Below, piece after piece: positions 60 to 10,958 of a stretch of 11,391 bases of DNA (its first letter is position 1; each line of letters opens with the position of its first letter). The stretch covers positions 1-11,391 of the forward strand of contig JARGFV010000086.1 in assembly GCA_029210545.1 (NCBI GenBank), in the 5' to 3' direction. Both the position numbers and the translations under genes were made by a program. The notes under the pieces were generated by a model. It was given only the letters and a program-made list of their open reading frames with translations. It did not search any database and had not been told where the DNA came from. Source of the DNA: a bacterium (GTDB lineage Bacteria; BMS3Abin14).

Positions 60-86
60 TTGATGGACTTTTTGCGAGTCCATCAA
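60..86. repeat. Perfect inverted repeat, 10-bp arms
   Basis: Arms 60-69 (TTGATGGACT) and 77-86 (AGTCCATCAA) flank the loop TTTTGCG. The ribosome-binding site of the next gene starts 6 nt later (92-98). A folded leader would therefore leave the SD free but sit directly beside it. Its right half resembles that of the repeat at 5-39 (GCGAGTC followed by a CAT..A stretch), so the two may be diverged copies. Confidence 0.8.
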
Positions 87-107
87 TCTTCAGGGGAGAA
101 ATGCCAG

Positions 108-1289
108 ATGGGAATCTTCGACAAGTGCATCAATTACACAGATCCGGACAAGGTCATGGCTGCCGGAGTCTATCCCTACTTCAGGACGATCGAGTCCCAG
201 CAGGATCCCGTAGTCATCATGGGCGGCAAGGAGGTCGTCATGTGCGGGTCCAACAACTACCTGGGTCTCACCTCTGATCCCAGGGTCAAGGAGGCAGCTG
301 TCGACGCCATCAGGAAGTACGGCACCGGCTGTGCCGGCTCCCGCTTTCTGAACGGCACCCTGGACATCCACGTCCAGCTGGAAGAAAAGCTGGCCGCCTT
401 TTTCCGGAAGGAAGGGGCGCTGGTCTACGCTACGGGCTACCAGACCAACCTGGGAGTGCTGTCAGCCCTGGTCACCCGGGGGGACATCGCCCTCAGCGAT
501 CGCCAGAACCACGCCTCCATCGTCGACGGTCTGAGGCTCGGATACGGTGATATAAGGAAGTTCAAACATAACGATGTCAAGGACCTTGATCGTAACCTCG
601 AAAGCCTGCGGGACAAGAACAAGCTGGTGGTGGTGGACGGGGTGTTCAGCATGGAGGGGGACATCACGCCCCTGGACGGGATCGCCGGGCTCAGGAAAAA
701 ACACGAATTCGGCATCATGGTGGACGATGCCCACGGAGTCGGTGTGCTGGGTGCAACCGGTAGGGGGACTGCCGAACAGTTTGGTCTGGAGGACGAGGTG
801 GATATCATCATGGGGACCTACAGTAAATCCCTGGCCACCATCGGCGGGTTTGTGGTCGCTTCCGCGGATATCATCAAGTATCTGAAGCATGTGAGCCGTT
901 CCATGATCTTTTCGGCCAGCCTCGCCCCTGGCCTTGTGGCTGCCGTGAGCGCTGCCCTCGACATTATCGACCAGGAGCCGGAGCGCCGTGAAAAGTTGTG
1001 GAAAAACACCAGAAAGATGTTGGATGGGTTCCAATCATTGGGTTTTGATACCGGCGCCGCCGCCACGCCTATCATCCCCGTGATCGTGGGCGACGATATG
1101 CTGGTTTTCAAGATGGCCATGCTGCTTCAGGATGAGGGTGTGTTCGTCAATGCGGTGGTCAGTCCGGCAACACCTCCCGGCAGGGCCCTTCTCCGGACGA
1201 GCTACATGGCTACCCATACCGACGAACAGCTCGACCGTGTTCTGGAAGCGTTCGAGAAGGTGGGGAGGGGCGTAGGTTTGATATCTTGA
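108..1289 (+). CDS. Serine palmitoyltransferase-like alpha-oxoamine synthase
   Basis: PLP-dependent fold-type I enzyme of the alpha-oxoamine synthase family, 393 aa from ATG 108. I chose that start because AGGGGAG at 92-98 sits 9 nt upstream; longer in-frame starts at 60/63 lie inside a hairpin and lack an SD. Visible residues are H135 (NHASIVDG, PLP stacking), D206 and H209 (VDDAHG) and the Schiff-base lysine K240 in GTYSKSLATIGGF. Their spacing matches Sphingomonas SPT (H159, D231, H234, K265). The SKSLxTxGGF form around the lysine favours SPT, which condenses serine with a palmitoyl thioester to 3-ketosphinganine, over Kbl (TLGKALG) or BioF (TLGKAFG). Predicted cytosolic. The neighbouring acyltransferase-like and lipid-kinase-like genes support a sphingolipid role. 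The stop codon lies inside a perfect hairpin. The family is certain; the substrate is inferred. Confidence 0.85.
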   Translation: MGIFDKCINYTDPDKVMAAGVYPYFRTIESQQDPVVIMGGKEVVMCGSNNYLGLTSDPRVKEAAVDAIRKYGTGCAGSRFLNGTLDIHVQLEEKLAAFFRKEGALVYATGYQTNLGVLSALVTRGDIALSDRQNHASIVDGLRLGYGDIRKFKHNDVKDLDRNLESLRDKNKLVVVDGVFSMEGDITPLDGIAGLRKKHEFGIMVDDAHGVGVLGATGRGTAEQFGLEDEVDIIMGTYSKSLATIGGFVVASADIIKYLKHVSRSMIFSASLAPGLVAAVSAALDIIDQEPERREKLWKNTRKMLDGFQSLGFDTGAAATPIIPVIVGDDMLVFKMAMLLQDEGVFVNAVVSPATPPGRALLRTSYMATHTDEQLDRVLEAFEKVGRGVGLIS

Positions 1290-1309
1290 TGCACTCAAGA
1301 TATCAAACC
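1275..1309. repeat. Perfect inverted repeat over stop codon, 15-bp arms
   Basis: Arms 1275-1289 and 1295-1309 are exact reverse complements with loop TGCAC. The left arm is the last four codons plus the TGA of the SPT-like gene. It could act as an RNA-stabilising 3' hairpin or a weak terminator, but G-rich sequence rather than a U-run follows it. Confidence 0.85.
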
Positions 1310-1315
1310 CCACGA

Positions 1316-1344
1316 GGGGGAGAAGGGGAGAGGGGGCGACGGGG
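1316..1344 (+). other. Candidate G-quadruplex motif
   Basis: Four G-runs (5, 4, 5 and 4 G) are separated by loops AGAA, AGA and CGAC. This satisfies the strict G3+N1-7 definition with runs of four or more. It lies on the coding strand between the SPT-like and GNAT genes, so both the mRNA and the non-template DNA strand could fold. Confidence 0.6.
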
Positions 1345-1356
1345 CGAAACAAGGCG

Positions 1357-1385
1357 GGATCGGTTTTCTGCCGATCCTGTTTCTT
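1357..1385 (+). terminator. Possible weak intrinsic terminator or attenuator
   Basis: The stem GGATCGG (1357-1363) pairs with CCGATCC (1371-1377) across a 7-nt loop, followed by the T-rich stretch TGTTTCTT. The U-tract is interrupted, so termination would be partial. It lies 14 nt before the GNAT start and could tune read-through from the SPT-like gene. Confidence 0.35.
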
Positions 1386-1398
1386 CGGAACCGTTATT

Positions 1399-2568
1399 AT
1401 GAACTTGCGGATCGTTCCCGCCGATACCGGCCGCGCCTTTAAACAGTTCATCAACCTTCCCTGGTCGATCTACAGGGACGATCCTTACTGGGTTCCGCCC
1501 ATGAAATCGGCCGTCCGCTTCCTGTTGTCATCGAAGCACCCCTTTTACCGTCACGCCGAAATACGGCTGTTCCTGGCCATGAAACAGGGCGTTCCCGTGG
1601 GTCGGATCGCGGCCATCGTCAACCACCGTCACAACGAATTCCACGACGAGAAGGCCGGCTTTTTCGGGTTCTTCGAGTGTGTGGACGACCAGGACGTCGC
1701 CGACGCCCTCCTGGCCGGGGCCCAGGACTGGCTGGCCGCGTCAGGAGCCGATATCGTCCGCGGACCGGTCAACCCCAGCACCAACGAGGAGTGCGGGCTC
1801 CTGGTGGAGAACTTCCTCTCCTCACCCATGGTCATGATGACCTACAACCCGCCCTATTACGCCGACCTCCTGGTTGGGGCAGGTTATGAGAAGGCGAAGG
1901 ACCTTTACGCTTACTGGTATCACGTGGGTAAAAAACTGCCCGACAGGCTGGAACGGATCGCCCGAAAGGTGAAGGAGCGGGAGCCCGGGCTCAATGTCAG
2001 GCCCATCGACATGGGGCGTTTTACCGAGGAACTGGATGTCGTCAAGGTCGTCTACAATGAGGCGTGGGAGCGGAACTGGGGCTTCGTGCCCATGACGGCC
2101 GAGGAACTCGATCACATGGCACGCCAGCTCAAGCCGGTGGTTGTCCCCGAAATGGTCAGTCTTGCTTTTGTTGACGATGAACCGGCCGGGTTTATCCTGG
2201 CCCTTCCCGATCTGAACCAGGTCCTGAAGATCCTGAACGGGACCCTTTTCACCCCCAGGCTATTTAAAGCCCTGTCAGCCGGCAGAAGGATCCGGACGGG
2301 CCGCTGCCTCACCCTCGGGGTCCGGGAGAAGTTCCGCAAGAAGGGGATCGAGTCGGCCATGTTCGCGCAGGTCTGGGGAGCGGGTATCGAGAGAGGATAT
2401 CGGTACGGGGAGTTCTCCTGGATCCTCGAGGACAACACCATCGTCCACGATACGGCGACAAGGGTCTTTTCTGCCGAACATTACAAAACCTACCGGATCT
2501 ACGAAAAGCCTTTAGGGGAGAAGCCCTTGGGGGAAAAGCCGCTGGTATCATCCCATGGCCCTGTCTGA
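1399..2568 (+). CDS. GNAT-fold acyltransferase, candidate ceramide synthase (bCerS-like)
   Basis: A 389-aa protein, about twice a single GNAT domain. It fits the two-part bacterial family with a GPVNPSTNEECGLL signature (residues 122-135), MMTYNPPYY (146-154), a conserved Y..AW..NWGF block (219-229) and a C-terminal GNAT motif-A-like segment LGVREKFRKKGIESAM (306-321). No signal peptide or membrane segment is visible, so it is probably cytosolic or membrane-associated. Bacterial ceramide synthase of Caulobacter is also a GNAT-superfamily protein from a sphingolipid cluster. Adjacency to an SPT-like gene makes N-acylation of a sphingoid base the leading hypothesis, but that is inference. The start ATG lacks a clear SD. 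The C-terminus ends in three EKPLG-type units encoded by 15-bp repeats and overlaps the next gene by 14 nt. It could instead act on another amine. Confidence 0.7.
   Translation: MNLRIVPADTGRAFKQFINLPWSIYRDDPYWVPPMKSAVRFLLSSKHPFYRHAEIRLFLAMKQGVPVGRIAAIVNHRHNEFHDEKAGFFGFFECVDDQDVADALLAGAQDWLAASGADIVRGPVNPSTNEECGLLVENFLSSPMVMMTYNPPYYADLLVGAGYEKAKDLYAYWYHVGKKLPDRLERIARKVKEREPGLNVRPIDMGRFTEELDVVKVVYNEAWERNWGFVPMTAEELDHMARQLKPVVVPEMVSLAFVDDEPAGFILALPDLNQVLKILNGTLFTPRLFKALSAGRRIRTGRCLTLGVREKFRKKGIESAMFAQVWGAGIERGYRYGEFSWILEDNTIVHDTATRVFSAEHYKTYRIYEKPLGEKPLGEKPLVSSHGPV
2503..2544 (+). repeat. 15-bp tandem repeat at GNAT 3' end (EKPLG x3)
   Basis: Two full and one nearly full 15-bp unit, GARAAGCCNYTNGGG-like, encode EKPLG-EKPLG-EKPL (residues 369-382). 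Third positions have diverged, so the duplication is not recent or is under coding constraint. It pushes the stop codon 14 nt into the downstream gene. Confidence 0.75.
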
Positions 2569-3154
2569 CATCCGGAGCGAGATCCCGAGGACCTTCTTTC
2601 ATATCGTCGGGGGGATCTCCCTGGCCTGCGCGGCCTGGTTCCCTGACCCGCCGACCAACCAGATCGTTCTGGGCTTGATCTTCGCCGCTTCTGTCGCGGG
2701 AGAGATCGGCCGCCTGACCTTCCCCGGCCTTAACCGTCTGACTCTGGCTGTGGCCGGGTCCGTGATGCGCCCGGGTGAGAAAAAAGGGCTTTCCGGGCTT
2801 CCGGCGTTCACCGGCGGTGTCTTCGCGGCGTTCCTCCTGTTCCCGAAGCCGGTCGCCCTCGCGGCCCTGGTACCCCTCCTTTTCGGGGACCGCGCCGGCC
2901 TGCTGGTGGGGAAGGGTGTGGGCCGGATCCGGATGTGGGGCAAGACACTGGAAGGGAGCCTGGCCTGCCTGGTGGTGAGTTTCCTGGTATACATTCTCCT
3001 GGCCTGGAGTTGGCCCGGGGTTTTCGGGTATCCGCGGGGCGTGCTGTTCACGGCCGCGTTGGTGGGAACAATGGCCGAGGCGATGCCAAGACCCTTCGAC
3101 GACAACATCACGATACCAATAGCTGTTGGTATTTTTCTTACACTCGTAACCTAG
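2555..3154 (+). CDS. Diacylglycerol/polyprenol kinase family membrane protein (DGK1/SEC59-like)
   Basis: A 199-aa integral membrane protein with five or six hydrophobic segments. It shows the motif set of the CTP-dependent lipid kinase family (yeast DGK1, dolichol kinase SEC59, plant VTE5/FOLK): N-terminal R..FH.VGG (residues 12-20), GDRAGLLVGKGVG (111-123), GKTLEGSLA (129-137) and the C-terminal GTMAEAMPRPFDDNITIP (171-188), which corresponds to the DDN..IP signature. The members transfer phosphate from a nucleotide to a membrane lipid alcohol. The start overlaps the GNAT gene by 14 nt, so translational coupling is likely. Next to SPT- and ceramide-synthase-like genes, the natural inference is phosphorylation of a sphingoid base, ceramide or related lipid. 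A polyprenol or diacylglycerol substrate cannot be excluded. It is too short for CdsA, which also carries a different signature. Confidence 0.75.
   Translation: MALSDIRSEIPRTFFHIVGGISLACAAWFPDPPTNQIVLGLIFAASVAGEIGRLTFPGLNRLTLAVAGSVMRPGEKKGLSGLPAFTGGVFAAFLLFPKPVALAALVPLLFGDRAGLLVGKGVGRIRMWGKTLEGSLACLVVSFLVYILLAWSWPGVFGYPRGVLFTAALVGTMAEAMPRPFDDNITIPIAVGIFLTLVT
3113..3137 (+). terminator. Weak AT-rich hairpin plus T-run inside the kinase gene end
   Basis: ATACCAA (3113-3119) pairs with TTGGTAT (3126-3132), loop TAGCTG, followed directly by TTTTC. The geometry is terminator-like but the stem is AT-rich and lies within the last codons of the coding sequence. It may be chance. Confidence 0.25.
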
Positions 3155-4592: not shown

Positions 4593-5090
4593 ATGAAAAT
4601 AAAGGGTAAAGTGACGTAGCTGGCATGGAGGACGACCCTGGCGCTGTGTCTCCTTTCAGGGTTCCTTCCCGCAGGTGCGGCGTTCGCCCAGGGTCCCCTG
4701 GAACTGACCCTATCCAATGCTGTCGAACAGGTCCGCCTCCACAACCTTTTTGTCGAAGCTGAAAGTTATTCGGTAGCCGGAGCCATGGCCGGGATCCTCC
4801 AGGAACGGGGCAAATTTCATCCAAGGCTCAATTTCAGTCTCTCCCATAATACCCGGGGGTACGAAACGCCATCCCAGCTGGAGCCCACGAGGGAGGAAAG
4901 CGCGCGCGGGGACCTGAGCCTGGAGATGATGACCCCCCAGGGGACACCTATGAGGTGAGCCTGGGCGGTCAGTGGGTAACAAGCGATATGGGGTTCCTTG
5001 TGCAGAATCCGTACTACCAGTCCGAGGCCGCGGAAACCATGGTCCGTCCTCTCATACGGGGGGCGGGGGACAATATCGCCAGCACGGGGA
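4593..5090 (+). pseudogene. TolC-family outer-membrane efflux protein remnant
   Basis: From ATG 4593 the frame reads MKIKGKVT, then a TAG stop (4617-4619), then continues as a signal peptide (TLALCLLSGFLPAGAAFA, about 4632-4685) and a TolC-like N-terminus: LELTLSNAVEQVRLHN, followed by [15 protein letters not shown]. At about 4941-4944 the frame shifts; one missing G in the run GGGG would restore [13 protein letters not shown], the usual TolC order. The other frame then continues to [14 protein letters not shown], a recognisable TolC family motif. The remaining ~300 residues are absent, because sequence switches to SecA near 5085-5100. Nonsense mutation, frameshift and truncation together mark it as dead. 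TolC channels normally pair with type I secretion or efflux pumps; none remains here. The frameshift alone could be an assembly error. Confidence 0.75.
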
Positions 5091-5569
5091 TCGACGCGGT
5101 GCTCAATGCCAGGCAGGATGACCACGAGGCGCAGATCATTTCAGAGGCCGGGCAGCGGGGACGGGTGACCGTGGCCACCAACATGGCCGGGCGCGGTACA
5201 GACATCACACTGGGCGACGGTGTCATGGAACTGGGCGGGCTTCATGTCCTCGCCACCGAGCTGCATGACGCCGGCCGCATCGACAGACAGCTTTACGGGC
5301 GTTGCGGGCGCCAGGGCGATCCTGGCGATTACGAGGCTGTCGTTTCCCTGGAAGACAACCTGTTCGACGGGCACATCGAAAAACCCCTGGGCCGGTTGGC
5401 GGCCAGGCTCACCAACCCGGATTCACCGCTGGGGAACCTGGCCGGCCGGCTCTTTGCCGGGATCGTCCAGAGAAAGGTCCAGAACGAGCATTTCCAGCTC
5501 AGGAAGAACCTGCTGAGGATGGACGAGGCCATGGAGAAAGCGATAGCGTTTTCAGGGAAAGGCGAATGA
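4955..5569 (+). pseudogene. Accessory SecA-like ATPase, C-terminal fragment fused to TolC sequence
   Basis: The longest open frame starts at GTG 4955 (204 aa). Its first ~45 residues are TolC-derived. From about [18 protein letters not shown] onward it is SecA nucleotide-binding domain 2: [13 protein letters not shown] (helicase motif V region), [22 protein letters not shown] and [10 protein letters not shown] (motif VI), then a helical tail ending in FSGKGE. The [19 protein letters not shown] form differs from housekeeping SecA ([19 protein letters not shown]), so it belonged to an accessory paralog. Walker A/B, the preprotein-crosslinking domain and most of the protein are missing, so it cannot be a working motor. 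The junction is in frame, as expected from an internal deletion between two adjacent secretion genes. The stop lies within a perfect hairpin. Confidence 0.8.
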
Positions 5570-7673: not shown

Positions 7674-7674
7674 T
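7654..7674. repeat. Short heptanucleotide series at HD-GYP 3' end
   Basis: GTCAGAT, GTGGGAT and GTGGAAT are three 7-bp units in register that run into the TGA stop (complement of 7674-7676). Short enough to be chance alone, but it matches the pattern at other gene ends in the window. Confidence 0.45.
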
Positions 7675-9929
7675 CAGTTTTCGAGCATCTTCAGGAACTC
7701 GTCCACGATTTCCTGATCCCACATCCCTTCCTGGGCTTCGCTGCGAAGGATCCTGGATGCTTCCTCGGGTGAAAAGGCTGGACGGTATGGACGGCGGCGG
7801 ACGAGGGTGTCGTAGACGTCGACGACCGAAACGATCCTCGCCGGCAGGGGGATATTGTTCCCCCGGAGCCCTTCCGGGTAACCCTTGCCGTCCATCCGTT
7901 CGTGGTGGTGCTTGATAACAGGAAGCGCGCCGTCGAGCATGGAAAAGGCTCTGCACAGGTCGTAACCGAGCCTGGGGTGGGATTTGACCACCATGAACTC
8001 TTCGGCCGACAGCATGCCCTCCCTGGTGATGATCTTGCCCGGCAGAAAGATCTTGCCCACATCGTGAAGGAGGCCTCCCCACCGCAGGGCGTCGATCTTA
8101 TCCGGTTCGAGGCCGAGGCGGGCGCCGAGAGCCACCGAGAGGTTGGAAACATGCTGCCCGTGCCCCTGGACATCCGTGTCCCCCTCCTCCAGGAGCCTGA
8201 CGAGCCTTTTGAGAAACGCCTCGACCTCCTCCGTTCCGGACATCAGTTGCGCGAGATCCAGGGAGCTCTTTACGCGATGGAGAAAATAATCGTTGGAAGC
8301 GCCTGCCGGAATGTAGTCGGCAGGAAGAAGGGCGGATGGTGAAGGGCCTTCCCCACCGCCTCCCTCATACCTGATGAGTATGGGAGTGTCGCGGCTTGTG
8401 AGGGAAGGGCCGAGCCGTTCCATGAGATCGGGGATCTTGTCCAGGCCGCCCTGGAGGATCACCAGGCTTGCATTGATCTTTCCGGGATCCCGCTTCTCCT
8501 CCATCGGCAGGATTTGGACCTGTCCGAACCCCTGGGATCTCAGGAGGGAGGCCAGTTCCTCACCACCCCGGCTGTCTCCGGCGACAACGATCCTCTCGCC
8601 CGAGGCGTGGCTGGTCTCGCCGCCGGTGAGATCCCGGGCCCTGTTCCTGAGGGAATCCCTGATCTCGTCGGTTCCCCATCCTTCCTCCCCTATGGACACC
8701 GTGACCAGGCGGATCTCCCACGGCGGCACCCCCATGTCCTCGGCTCTCGACATTATCCTGGACAGGGCGATCTGGGCCCTTTCAGATGGCGTTTCCGGGA
8801 GGATGAGGGACAGGTCCGTCTCGCCGGTGATGAAATCGAGATCGAAATTTCTGAGTATGGACCTTATCTCGCCGGCGATTTTCAGGAAGCTTTCCCCGGA
8901 CTGGAATCGGATGCGGGCAACGGTGAAGGGAAGCTGCGCCTTCTGGGACCAGTTCACGATCTCCGGGTAGACGAAGCGGAAAAATTCCAGGAGAGGGATG
9001 CCCGTGGACGGATCGGAAAATCCGTTCCTGCTCAGGAGGAGGGCGTTGCCCAGTAATTTCTGATGGCCCCGGTTCCTGTCGAGGAGCCTTCGGACACGGG
9101 CGAGCACTTCGACGTTCCGGGCAGGCTTGATGAGGTAATCGTCGGGGCCTGACTCCATCCCGACGACGCGGTTATCCAGTTCGGGAACCGATGTGAGCAT
9201 GAGCAGGGGTGTGTACCTGGTCTCTTCCTGTTTCTTCAGGTAACGGCAAAGCTCAAGGCCGTCCAGGTCCGGAAACAGAAGATCCACGATGATCAGCTGC
9301 GGCGCTTTTTGCCTGATGTGCCAGAGAGCGTCAGACGGCGTTCTCGCCTTGACGACCTCGCACGGGATCTGCTCGAGCAGCCGTCCTATATTCTCCATCT
9401 CGGAGGCCTCGTCCTCTACCAGCAGAACGGTCGGGATTAGGTCGTCGTGGGTGAAAGGCCTGATCTTCTTTCGGAGCAGGAACTGTTCCTGGATGCGGAT
9501 CTGGCCGAGGAGTTGACGGTTCCTGAGAAGAGACCCGACCCTGGCGAGGAGTTCCAGGGACCTGACCGGGCGCATCAGGGTGTCGTCAAGGCCTTCCCTG
9601 AGGTTTATCGGAACGTTGTCCTCTTCGTCGGGATCCATGAGAAACAGGAGGGGCAGGGGAGCGGCCTCGTCCAGTTGCCCCATGAGTCGCACAAAACCGC
9701 CGTCCTCGCCGGCCGCGCACCTGTGATCGATGATAATGATGTGGGGGACTCCCTCTGCCACGCGATCAACGGCTTCGGAAGGGCCGTGGACAGCGACGAC
9801 ATTGAAGTCGGCACCCAGAAGCTGGGCCCGGAGCACAGCCCGCTCGGAATTTTCAGGGGTTATGATGAATACGAGGGGATTCCAGGTCATAATTTGCGCT
9901 TCTGCACCGATCTTGTCGCGCTCATGCAC
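7674..9929 (-). CDS. Multi-receiver HD-GYP cyclic dinucleotide phosphodiesterase
   Basis: A 751-aa cytosolic signalling protein. Residues 16-137 form a receiver-like domain with D68 but Arg (R120) where the conserved Lys should be, so probably non-phosphorylated. Residues 166-285 form a complete receiver (E172/D173, phospho-acceptor D216, T246, K268). Residues 300-420 resemble a GGDEF fold with the signature decayed to TGETD (368-372), so no cyclase activity is expected. Residues 445-560 look like another degenerate receiver. Residues 585-735 are an HD-GYP domain with H593, HDVGK (622-626), H651, HHxxxDGKGYP (675-685) and D704, all metal-ligand positions and the GYP motif intact, so hydrolysis of a cyclic dinucleotide is expected. 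The longest start is GTG 9929; ATG 9890 (residue 14) is an alternative, and neither has a good SD. It lies 27 nt after the GGDEF gene, almost certainly in one operon. Confidence 0.88.
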   Translation of the reverse strand: MHERDKIGAEAQIMTWNPLVFIITPENSERAVLRAQLLGADFNVVAVHGPSEAVDRVAEGVPHIIIIDHRCAAGEDGGFVRLMGQLDEAAPLPLLFLMDPDEEDNVPINLREGLDDTLMRPVRSLELLARVGSLLRNRQLLGQIRIQEQFLLRKKIRPFTHDDLIPTVLLVEDEASEMENIGRLLEQIPCEVVKARTPSDALWHIRQKAPQLIIVDLLFPDLDGLELCRYLKKQEETRYTPLLMLTSVPELDNRVVGMESGPDDYLIKPARNVEVLARVRRLLDRNRGHQKLLGNALLLSRNGFSDPSTGIPLLEFFRFVYPEIVNWSQKAQLPFTVARIRFQSGESFLKIAGEIRSILRNFDLDFITGETDLSLILPETPSERAQIALSRIMSRAEDMGVPPWEIRLVTVSIGEEGWGTDEIRDSLRNRARDLTGGETSHASGERIVVAGDSRGGEELASLLRSQGFGQVQILPMEEKRDPGKINASLVILQGGLDKIPDLMERLGPSLTSRDTPILIRYEGGGGEGPSPSALLPADYIPAGASNDYFLHRVKSSLDLAQLMSGTEEVEAFLKRLVRLLEEGDTDVQGHGQHVSNLSVALGARLGLEPDKIDALRWGGLLHDVGKIFLPGKIITREGMLSAEEFMVVKSHPRLGYDLCRAFSMLDGALPVIKHHHERMDGKGYPEGLRGNNIPLPARIVSVVDVYDTLVRRRPYRPAFSPEEASRILRSEAQEGMWDQEIVDEFLKMLEN

Positions 9930-9956: not shown

Positions 9957-10958
9957 TCAGCTGACAGTTATCGTGTTCTTCCCACGATCCTTGCTGCGGT
10001 ACATGGAAACGTCGGCGCTTCTGAGAAGCCCCTTCAGGTCCTGTGCGTCCTCGGGGAAATTGGCGACGCCGAAACTCGCCGTGACCTTGACGTGGTGGCC
10101 GTCTTCCTCAAGGCACACAGCTTCGTTCAACGCGACGCGGATCTTCTCGACTGCTTCGATGGCCTCGTTCTTGTTCCGGCCGGGCAGGACGACGACGTAT
10201 TCGTCGCCCCCGTAACGGACCAGGAAGTCGTCCCCGGCGAGCTGGGTGGCGATGGCTTCGGCGACCTCCTTTAGGACCTTGCTTCCCATGGGATGTCCGT
10301 ATGTGTCCACGATGCGCTTGAAGTTGTCCATGTCGAGGAACACCAGGGACGTCGCCTGTCCTGAATCGATGATCTCGGCAAGTTTCTGGTGCAGGAACCT
10401 GCTGTTGTAAAAGCCGGAGACGTCGTCGGTGACGACCAGTTTCTCGATCTTCTCGTGGTTGAGGGCGTTGCTGATGGAGATGGCGACGAAATCGGACAGG
10501 ATCTGGAGAATGGGAAAAATCCGGTGCTCGAACAGTTCCTGGTTCTCCGGGTTGATGATCTGCAGGACACCGATGACCCTTTCGCCCAGCTTGAGGGGCA
10601 GCGTGATGAGGGAGTGGGTCTTGAATCCGGTCCGGCTGTCCACCCTTTTGTCGAAATGAGGTTCGCTCCCGGTGTCCGGAACGAGGATCGGCTCGCCCGT
10701 TTCGGCGACCATTCCGGCCAACCCTTCACCGACCTTCAGTGTCAGCCTTTTGAGGTCCTTTCCCTCCAGCCCGACCACCACCTCGAAGCGAAGCTCCTGG
10801 CGCTCGGCGTCCATGAGGTAAAGGGTCCAGTTCTGGGCCCGGATCAGCTGGCTCAGGCGGTTCAGAATGATCTTCAGGATCTCTTCCCTGTCGAGGGTCG
10901 AGGTGACGGCCTTGCCGAGCTCGACACACGCCATAAGTTGTTCGGTCAGGTCGCTCAT
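9957..10958 (-). CDS. GAF-GGDEF nucleotide cyclase, candidate Hypr-type (cGAMP) enzyme
   Basis: A 333-aa cytosolic protein: GAF sensor (residues ~10-165), then GGDEF (175-333). Catalytic features are intact: metal ligands D209 and D252/E253 and the RYGGDEY signature (248-254). The two residues that hydrogen-bond guanine in PleD (N335, D344) are changed: FKxIND reads FKRIVD (V217) and GHxxGD reads GHPMGS (S226). Asp-to-Ser at this site is the hallmark described for Hypr GGDEF enzymes of Geobacter, which accept ATP and make 3',3'-cGAMP. The I-site RxxD is also lost (A241-G-D-D244), so product inhibition at that site is unlikely. ATG 10958 is preceded by GGAGA (10966-10970). A sigma70-like promoter lies at 11028-11056. 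Diguanylate cyclase remains the default alternative. Confidence 0.88.
   Translation of the reverse strand: MSDLTEQLMACVELGKAVTSTLDREEILKIILNRLSQLIRAQNWTLYLMDAERQELRFEVVVGLEGKDLKRLTLKVGEGLAGMVAETGEPILVPDTGSEPHFDKRVDSRTGFKTHSLITLPLKLGERVIGVLQIINPENQELFEHRIFPILQILSDFVAISISNALNHEKIEKLVVTDDVSGFYNSRFLHQKLAEIIDSGQATSLVFLDMDNFKRIVDTYGHPMGSKVLKEVAEAIATQLAGDDFLVRYGGDEYVVVLPGRNKNEAIEAVEKIRVALNEAVCLEEDGHHVKVTASFGVANFPEDAQDLKGLLRSADVSMYRSKDRGKNTITVS

Follow-up and report, generated by a model that had tools for sequence, protein, structure and literature searches.

The window, that is, the whole stretch of 11,391 nucleotides analysed here, encodes a 333-aa GAF-GGDEF protein (9957..10958, minus strand, translated from an ATG start) whose Hypr ancestry is supported by a phylogeny of GGDEF domains. 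It falls into a group marked by Val and Ser at the two guanine-contacting positions, which is apparently a conserved, undescribed branch of the Hypr clade. That this protein makes 3',3'-cGAMP is plausible, at about an even chance, as judged from sequence comparison. That the lineage could make cGAMP is better supported by a GacA-like paralogue.

Domain organization and base-contacting residues

The features of the protein, and the gene that follows it, are given below in window coordinates. Columns were assigned by alignment to GacA (PDB 6d9m) together with 130-160 GGDEF domains.

10473..10892 (minus strand): GAF domain, residues 23-162 (Pfam scan)
9975..10433 (minus strand): GGDEF domain, residues 176-328 (Pfam scan, E 1e-35)
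10401..10403 (minus strand): Ser186 codon, cross-dimer base-stacking site (canonical enzymes have Arg here and GacA has Tyr304)
10308..10310 (minus strand): Val217 codon, column of PleD N335 and GacA Asn339
10281..10283 (minus strand): Ser226 codon, column of PleD D344 and GacA Ser348
10236..10238 (minus strand): Ala241 codon, column of the I-site RxxD Arg, which is absent
10197..10211 (minus strand): GGDEY catalytic motif, residues 250-254
7674..9929 (minus strand): REC-REC-HD-GYP protein, 751 aa, 27 bp downstream of the GGDEF gene on the same strand

In the alignment to 6d9m the window protein reads DMDNFKRIVDTYGHPMGSKVL and GacA reads DLDFFKGVNDTHGHLVGSQVL, and because Ser226 is aligned with the serine of 6d9m it is the Hypr serine. 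The original prediction had placed Val217 and Ser226 at the N335 and D344 columns and Ala241 at the I-site, with the metal and catalytic residues (D209, RYGGDEY) retained; the translation and the alignments with GSU1658 (6d9m) and other GGDEF domains bear out all of these residues, their numbers and their codons. Also kept are K323 (K442 column) and K327 (R446 column). The same Val and Ser are carried by a 78% orthologue (L017/L056), and since the pair occurs in this orthologue and in 28 distinct domains belonging to one clade, it is neither a chance finding nor a sequencing error.

With both guanine contacts, Asn335 and Asp344, replaced by Val217 and Ser226, the protein falls outside the canonical diguanylate cyclases, and with the I-site RxxD lost at Ala241 it falls outside the feedback-inhibited ones. 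This loss, which the original prediction had taken as a further distinguishing mark, does set it apart from feedback-inhibited cyclases, but it is not a Hypr trait, since the I-site of GacA works and that of Bd0367 is conserved. Among solved structures, the best matches of the GAF domain are GAF domains of cyclic-nucleotide phosphodiesterase and adenylate cyclase (5w10, 1ykd), and its ligand may therefore be a cyclic nucleotide.

Phylogeny of the Val/Ser domains

Homologues were collected from 61 related genomes, from the GTDB species collection and by motif searches, and their maximum-likelihood tree rests on 154 columns, those of the cross-dimer site, N335 and D344 having been left out. Even without these specificity columns, the window protein and GacA were placed in one clade (support 96/89), in agreement with the kinship originally proposed. 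All Ser domains except one (L059) were grouped with GacA at this same node, an exclusivity that holds for the sampled domains rather than for all GGDEF domains, the sampling being tilted toward relatives of the query. The exception, a GGDEF domain from Acidobacteriota (Thermoanaerobaculia) with Ser344 and Asn335, lies outside the GacA clade and is possibly an independent Asp-to-Ser change.

The Val/Ser domains, 28 rows in the tree, form a monophyletic group (100/93), with a single origin in 100% of the bootstraps, and come from Desulfobulbales, Desulfobacterales, Desulfobacca and the window lineage. The nearest relatives of the group combine Asn with Ser in a GAF-GGDEF architecture (L018-L021, L028; supported jointly with it at 94/87), and the order of events, as read from the tree, would be D344S first and N335V later, once. 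Throughout the 28 domains, Val, Ser, the GGDE[F/Y] motif, the Tyr preceding it and the Lys at the R446 position are found in 100%, the position of GacA Tyr304 is occupied by Thr or Ser (Thr in 93%), and the RxxD I-site is missing. The metal, general-base and phosphate residues (D209, GGDE[F/Y] and the lysines at the K442 and R446 positions) are kept in 28 out of 28. Among 160 distinct GGDEF domains, Val at 335 was paired with Ser at 344 in 29 out of 29 cases and never with Asp; part of the sample was gathered with a Val/Ser motif, so that the count is inflated, but the absence of Val/Asp among similarity-found domains is unaffected. The motif GGDE[F/Y], with its central Asp, was found in all 73 Ser domains examined.

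The Val/Ser domains are joined to GAF (P0001, L056-L058), PAS-PAS (Desulfopila, L061) or REC (L144, L152) input modules, as is expected of a regulated catalytic output. They are under purifying selection, with a GGDEF-domain dN/dS of 0.19 for the window gene against its 78% orthologue and of 0.06-0.17 for the other unsaturated pairs (Nei-Gojobori). Val/Ser genes were detected in 16 out of 146 Desulfobulbales genomes, in two out of 395 genomes of a phylum-wide sample searched with a stricter motif, and in two of the 12 genomes of the window's own family.

A GacA-like paralogue in the same family

Two of the 15 GGDEF matches in the window genome have Ser at the D344 position, the window gene and a paralogue (L006; G000:C2:33169-34614, L205:5170-6615) that a domain scan, run on this member only, shows to be a REC-GAF-GGDEF protein. 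The paralogue resembles the window protein in its Ser at 344, its GGDEY motif, its GAF input and its position in the same overall clade, but differs in the added REC domain, the Asn that is kept, the Tyr at the cross-dimer site and an intact I-site (RKVD). Proteins of this type (Asn, Ser, Tyr, RKVD) were found in 12 out of 12 family genomes (L006, L025, L027, L030, L031, L034, L035, L037, L038, L040, L041 and L218), this single family of 12 genomes being the whole of the phylum that was searched. The paralogue thus looks like the GacA equivalent and would be the best candidate for the cGAMP synthase of the lineage. The original proposal that the lineage uses cGAMP signalling is therefore better carried by this paralogue, present in every family genome, than by the window gene, which was found in two of the 12, nor was a cGAMP-type riboswitch detected in the window genome; the cGAMP route of the lineage is corrected accordingly.

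An A at position 20 of GEMM-I aptamers marks cGAMP binding. No match to the GEMM-I (c-di-GMP-I) riboswitch was detected in the window genome (~97% complete, 241 contigs); the GEMM-I aptamers of other family members read as G20, and in the genomes bearing Val/Ser domains these riboswitches are nearly all G20, of the c-di-GMP type. One A20-equivalent aptamer (L185, ~1508, minus strand) was observed in a Desulfobulbaceae genome (G071) that carries a Val/Ser GGDEF domain, and is a possible cGAMP-type riboswitch. With none in the window genome and this lone candidate elsewhere, there are too few such riboswitches to serve as a clue to the product. The diadenylate cyclase (DAC) domain PF02457 was found in 31 out of 31 genomes tested, the window genome included, ruling out that the GGDEF enzyme supplies c-di-AMP in place of a missing DAC.

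Gene neighbourhood

The HD-GYP gene is present in 12 out of 12 family genomes and is thus a core gene, whereas the GGDEF gene beside it was found in two. An apt-like (phosphoribosyltransferase) gene comes first in G002, followed by the GGDEF gene and the HD-GYP gene, whereas the sister genomes G003 and G011 have the apt-like gene directly next to the HD-GYP gene and lack a GGDEF gene at that place, suggesting that the GGDEF gene was either inserted as an optional element beside the core HD-GYP gene or lost in the other genomes. The HD-GYP protein is a candidate phosphodiesterase partner without a specific tie to the GGDEF gene, its wider distribution weakening the idea of a dedicated degradation enzyme. 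In the neighbourhoods of the other orders, no conserved neighbour or cGAMP effector travels with the Val/Ser genes.

Two other regions of the window were observed:

4620-5569 (plus strand): 112-aa secreted-looking ORF, with no Pfam match, running out of frame into a SecA-like 3' fragment that has the P-loop domain only
60-3154 (plus strand): serine palmitoyltransferase-like enzyme of the AOS family, below the NCBIfam cut-offs, followed by two ORFs of 389 and 199 aa with no Pfam or NCBIfam match

The 112-aa ORF is a possible N-terminus of an outer-membrane protein. Because G002 and G003 also have SecA-like sequence close to their HD-GYP gene, the first region looks like a deletion or decay, or an assembly join. 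The second is a possible sphingolipid-type lipid cluster.

Predicted activity of the window protein and alternative readings

Hypr enzymes, with Ser or Thr at 344, make up ~0.17% of GGDEF domains (PMC9140294). In GacA, Ser348 contacts the Watson-Crick face of the base and Asn339 its sugar edge, and the enzyme, with its Asn kept, prefers GTP over ATP (PMC6456294). According to the Goldilocks model the serine is functional only with GGDEF and not with GGEEF, the general base being the fourth residue of the motif and working across the dimer (PMC6456294). A cross-dimer Arg stacked on the guanine favours c-di-GMP, and mostly cGAMP was made by those enzymes that have Tyr, Ser, Ala or Gln at this site (PMC6456294).

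The window protein has Ser226, common ancestry with GacA and also the published correlates beyond the serine, GGDE[F/Y] instead of GGEEF and a non-Arg cross-dimer residue. Taken together, Ser226, GGDEY and Ser186 indicate a promiscuous, cGAMP-capable enzyme. The Hypr kinship originally proposed thus stands as to the ancestry of Ser226, but Val217 departs from GacA, which keeps Asn339 (PMC6456294), and this makes the product less certain. Asn at this position is a general GGDEF feature outside the published Hypr definition. No assay of a Val-bearing GGDEF enzyme was found in the literature examined, which did not extend to the 2016 PNAS Hypr study, and Val217 lies outside the range that the examined literature describes.

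We infer the activity, the product and the GAF ligand of the window protein from these comparisons, and give half of our belief to a cytosolic, GAF-gated, product-insensitive promiscuous dinucleotide cyclase that would make mainly 3',3'-cGAMP within a mix. Its GGDEF domains would dimerise with one purine NTP bound to each, and the conserved Glu of GGDEY would activate the 3'-OH across the dimer. Ser226 in place of the guanine-selecting Asp should allow ATP to be accepted beside GTP, and the preference for GTP would be weakened further by Val217, through loss of the remaining contact with the guanine sugar edge, and by Ser186, through loss of the guanine-stacking cross-dimer Arg; Val217 might also weaken overall binding. 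As the I-site is gone, no shut-off by c-di-GMP would be expected, and the product may be broken down by the neighbouring HD-GYP protein. Against this reading stand the lack of GEMM-I matches in the window genome and the G20 type of nearly all those in genomes with Val/Ser domains, the absence of a conserved effector or neighbour accompanying the clade, and the patchy presence of the gene in its own family.

The same residues could also be read as an adenine-preferring site using mainly ATP, with c-di-AMP or obligatorily mixed products, a reading that we consider unlikely. The two hydrogen bonds specific to guanine are gone, as is the Arg that favours it, and the C2-H face of adenine would be well accommodated by Val; N335V is fixed, was derived once and occurs in a Ser344 background only, with Thr or Ser co-fixed at the cross-dimer site, and since even the Asn-keeping GacA prefers GTP (PMC6456294), removal of the Asn should push towards ATP. 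However, Val gives adenine no specific hydrogen bond either, so that general promiscuity is at least as probable, and with PF02457 in 31 out of 31 genomes a second source of c-di-AMP would be unneeded. Extended to the whole branch, this reading would have the Val/Ser base pocket rebuilt for adenine, giving an ATP-preferring, c-di-GMP-insensitive cyclase on GAF, PAS and REC sensors in several Desulfobacterota orders, which we find doubtful; if true, sulfate reducers and related anaerobes would own a GGDEF-made, adenine-containing second messenger.

It is likewise improbable that the domain is weak or dead and serves as a nucleotide-binding sensor or acts by contacting other proteins, of which the HD-GYP protein encoded 27 bp downstream on the same strand would be an example. 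Since N335 and D344 have been termed essential for the activity of canonical GGDEF enzymes (PMC7288161), their loss, here together with that of the I-site, could cripple the enzyme. Against this, all 28 Val/Ser domains keep their metal, general-base and phosphate residues, under purifying selection, the domain occurs with several kinds of sensor module, a conserved adjacent partner is missing from most Val/Ser genes, and sister genomes have the HD-GYP gene without the GGDEF gene. Least probable, and in our view quite remote, is an ordinary diguanylate cyclase in practice, which in vivo would make chiefly c-di-GMP even with these substitutions. Known Hypr enzymes do make c-di-GMP too, and the genome has abundant c-di-GMP machinery (15 GGDEF and many HD-GYP matches), but the guanine-favouring N335, D344 and cross-dimer Arg are all gone and the protein lies inside the clade that contains GacA.

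What is understood of Hypr specificity derives from a single structure, where the base is contacted by Asn and Ser, and a natural Val/Ser branch without the I-site would let the residues that choose between ATP and GTP be probed directly. The branch also bears on the uncoupling of cGAMP synthesis from c-di-GMP, and suggests that sulfate-reducing bacteria and related anaerobes may use signalling of the cGAMP type.

Comparison with known GGDEF enzymes

GacA (GSU1658/Gmet_1914, PDB 6d9m), the cGAMP synthase of Geobacter, and the window protein belong to the same clade and have in common the Ser at D344, GGDE[F/Y] preceded by Tyr, the Lys at the R446 position and a non-Arg cross-dimer residue. Unlike the window protein, with Val217, Ser186 and no I-site, GacA has Asn339, Tyr304, a c-di-GMP-binding I-site and a REC domain. 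Bd0367, the Hypr GGDEF protein of Bdellovibrio bacteriovorus, is described as having Ser at the D344 position (S214), as in the window protein, but with a conserved I-site and Met at the cross-dimer site. GSU1937, the second Hypr-type GGDEF protein of Geobacter, affects cGAMP in vivo (PMC8835794) and shares the diagnostic Ser, whereas its GGDDF motif and membrane HAMP architecture contrast with the GGDEY motif and soluble GAF domain of the window protein. The canonical PleD and WspR are similar to it in fold and in metal and catalytic residues, but have Asn335, Asp344, the cross-dimer Arg and usually the I-site, all four of which differ in the window protein.
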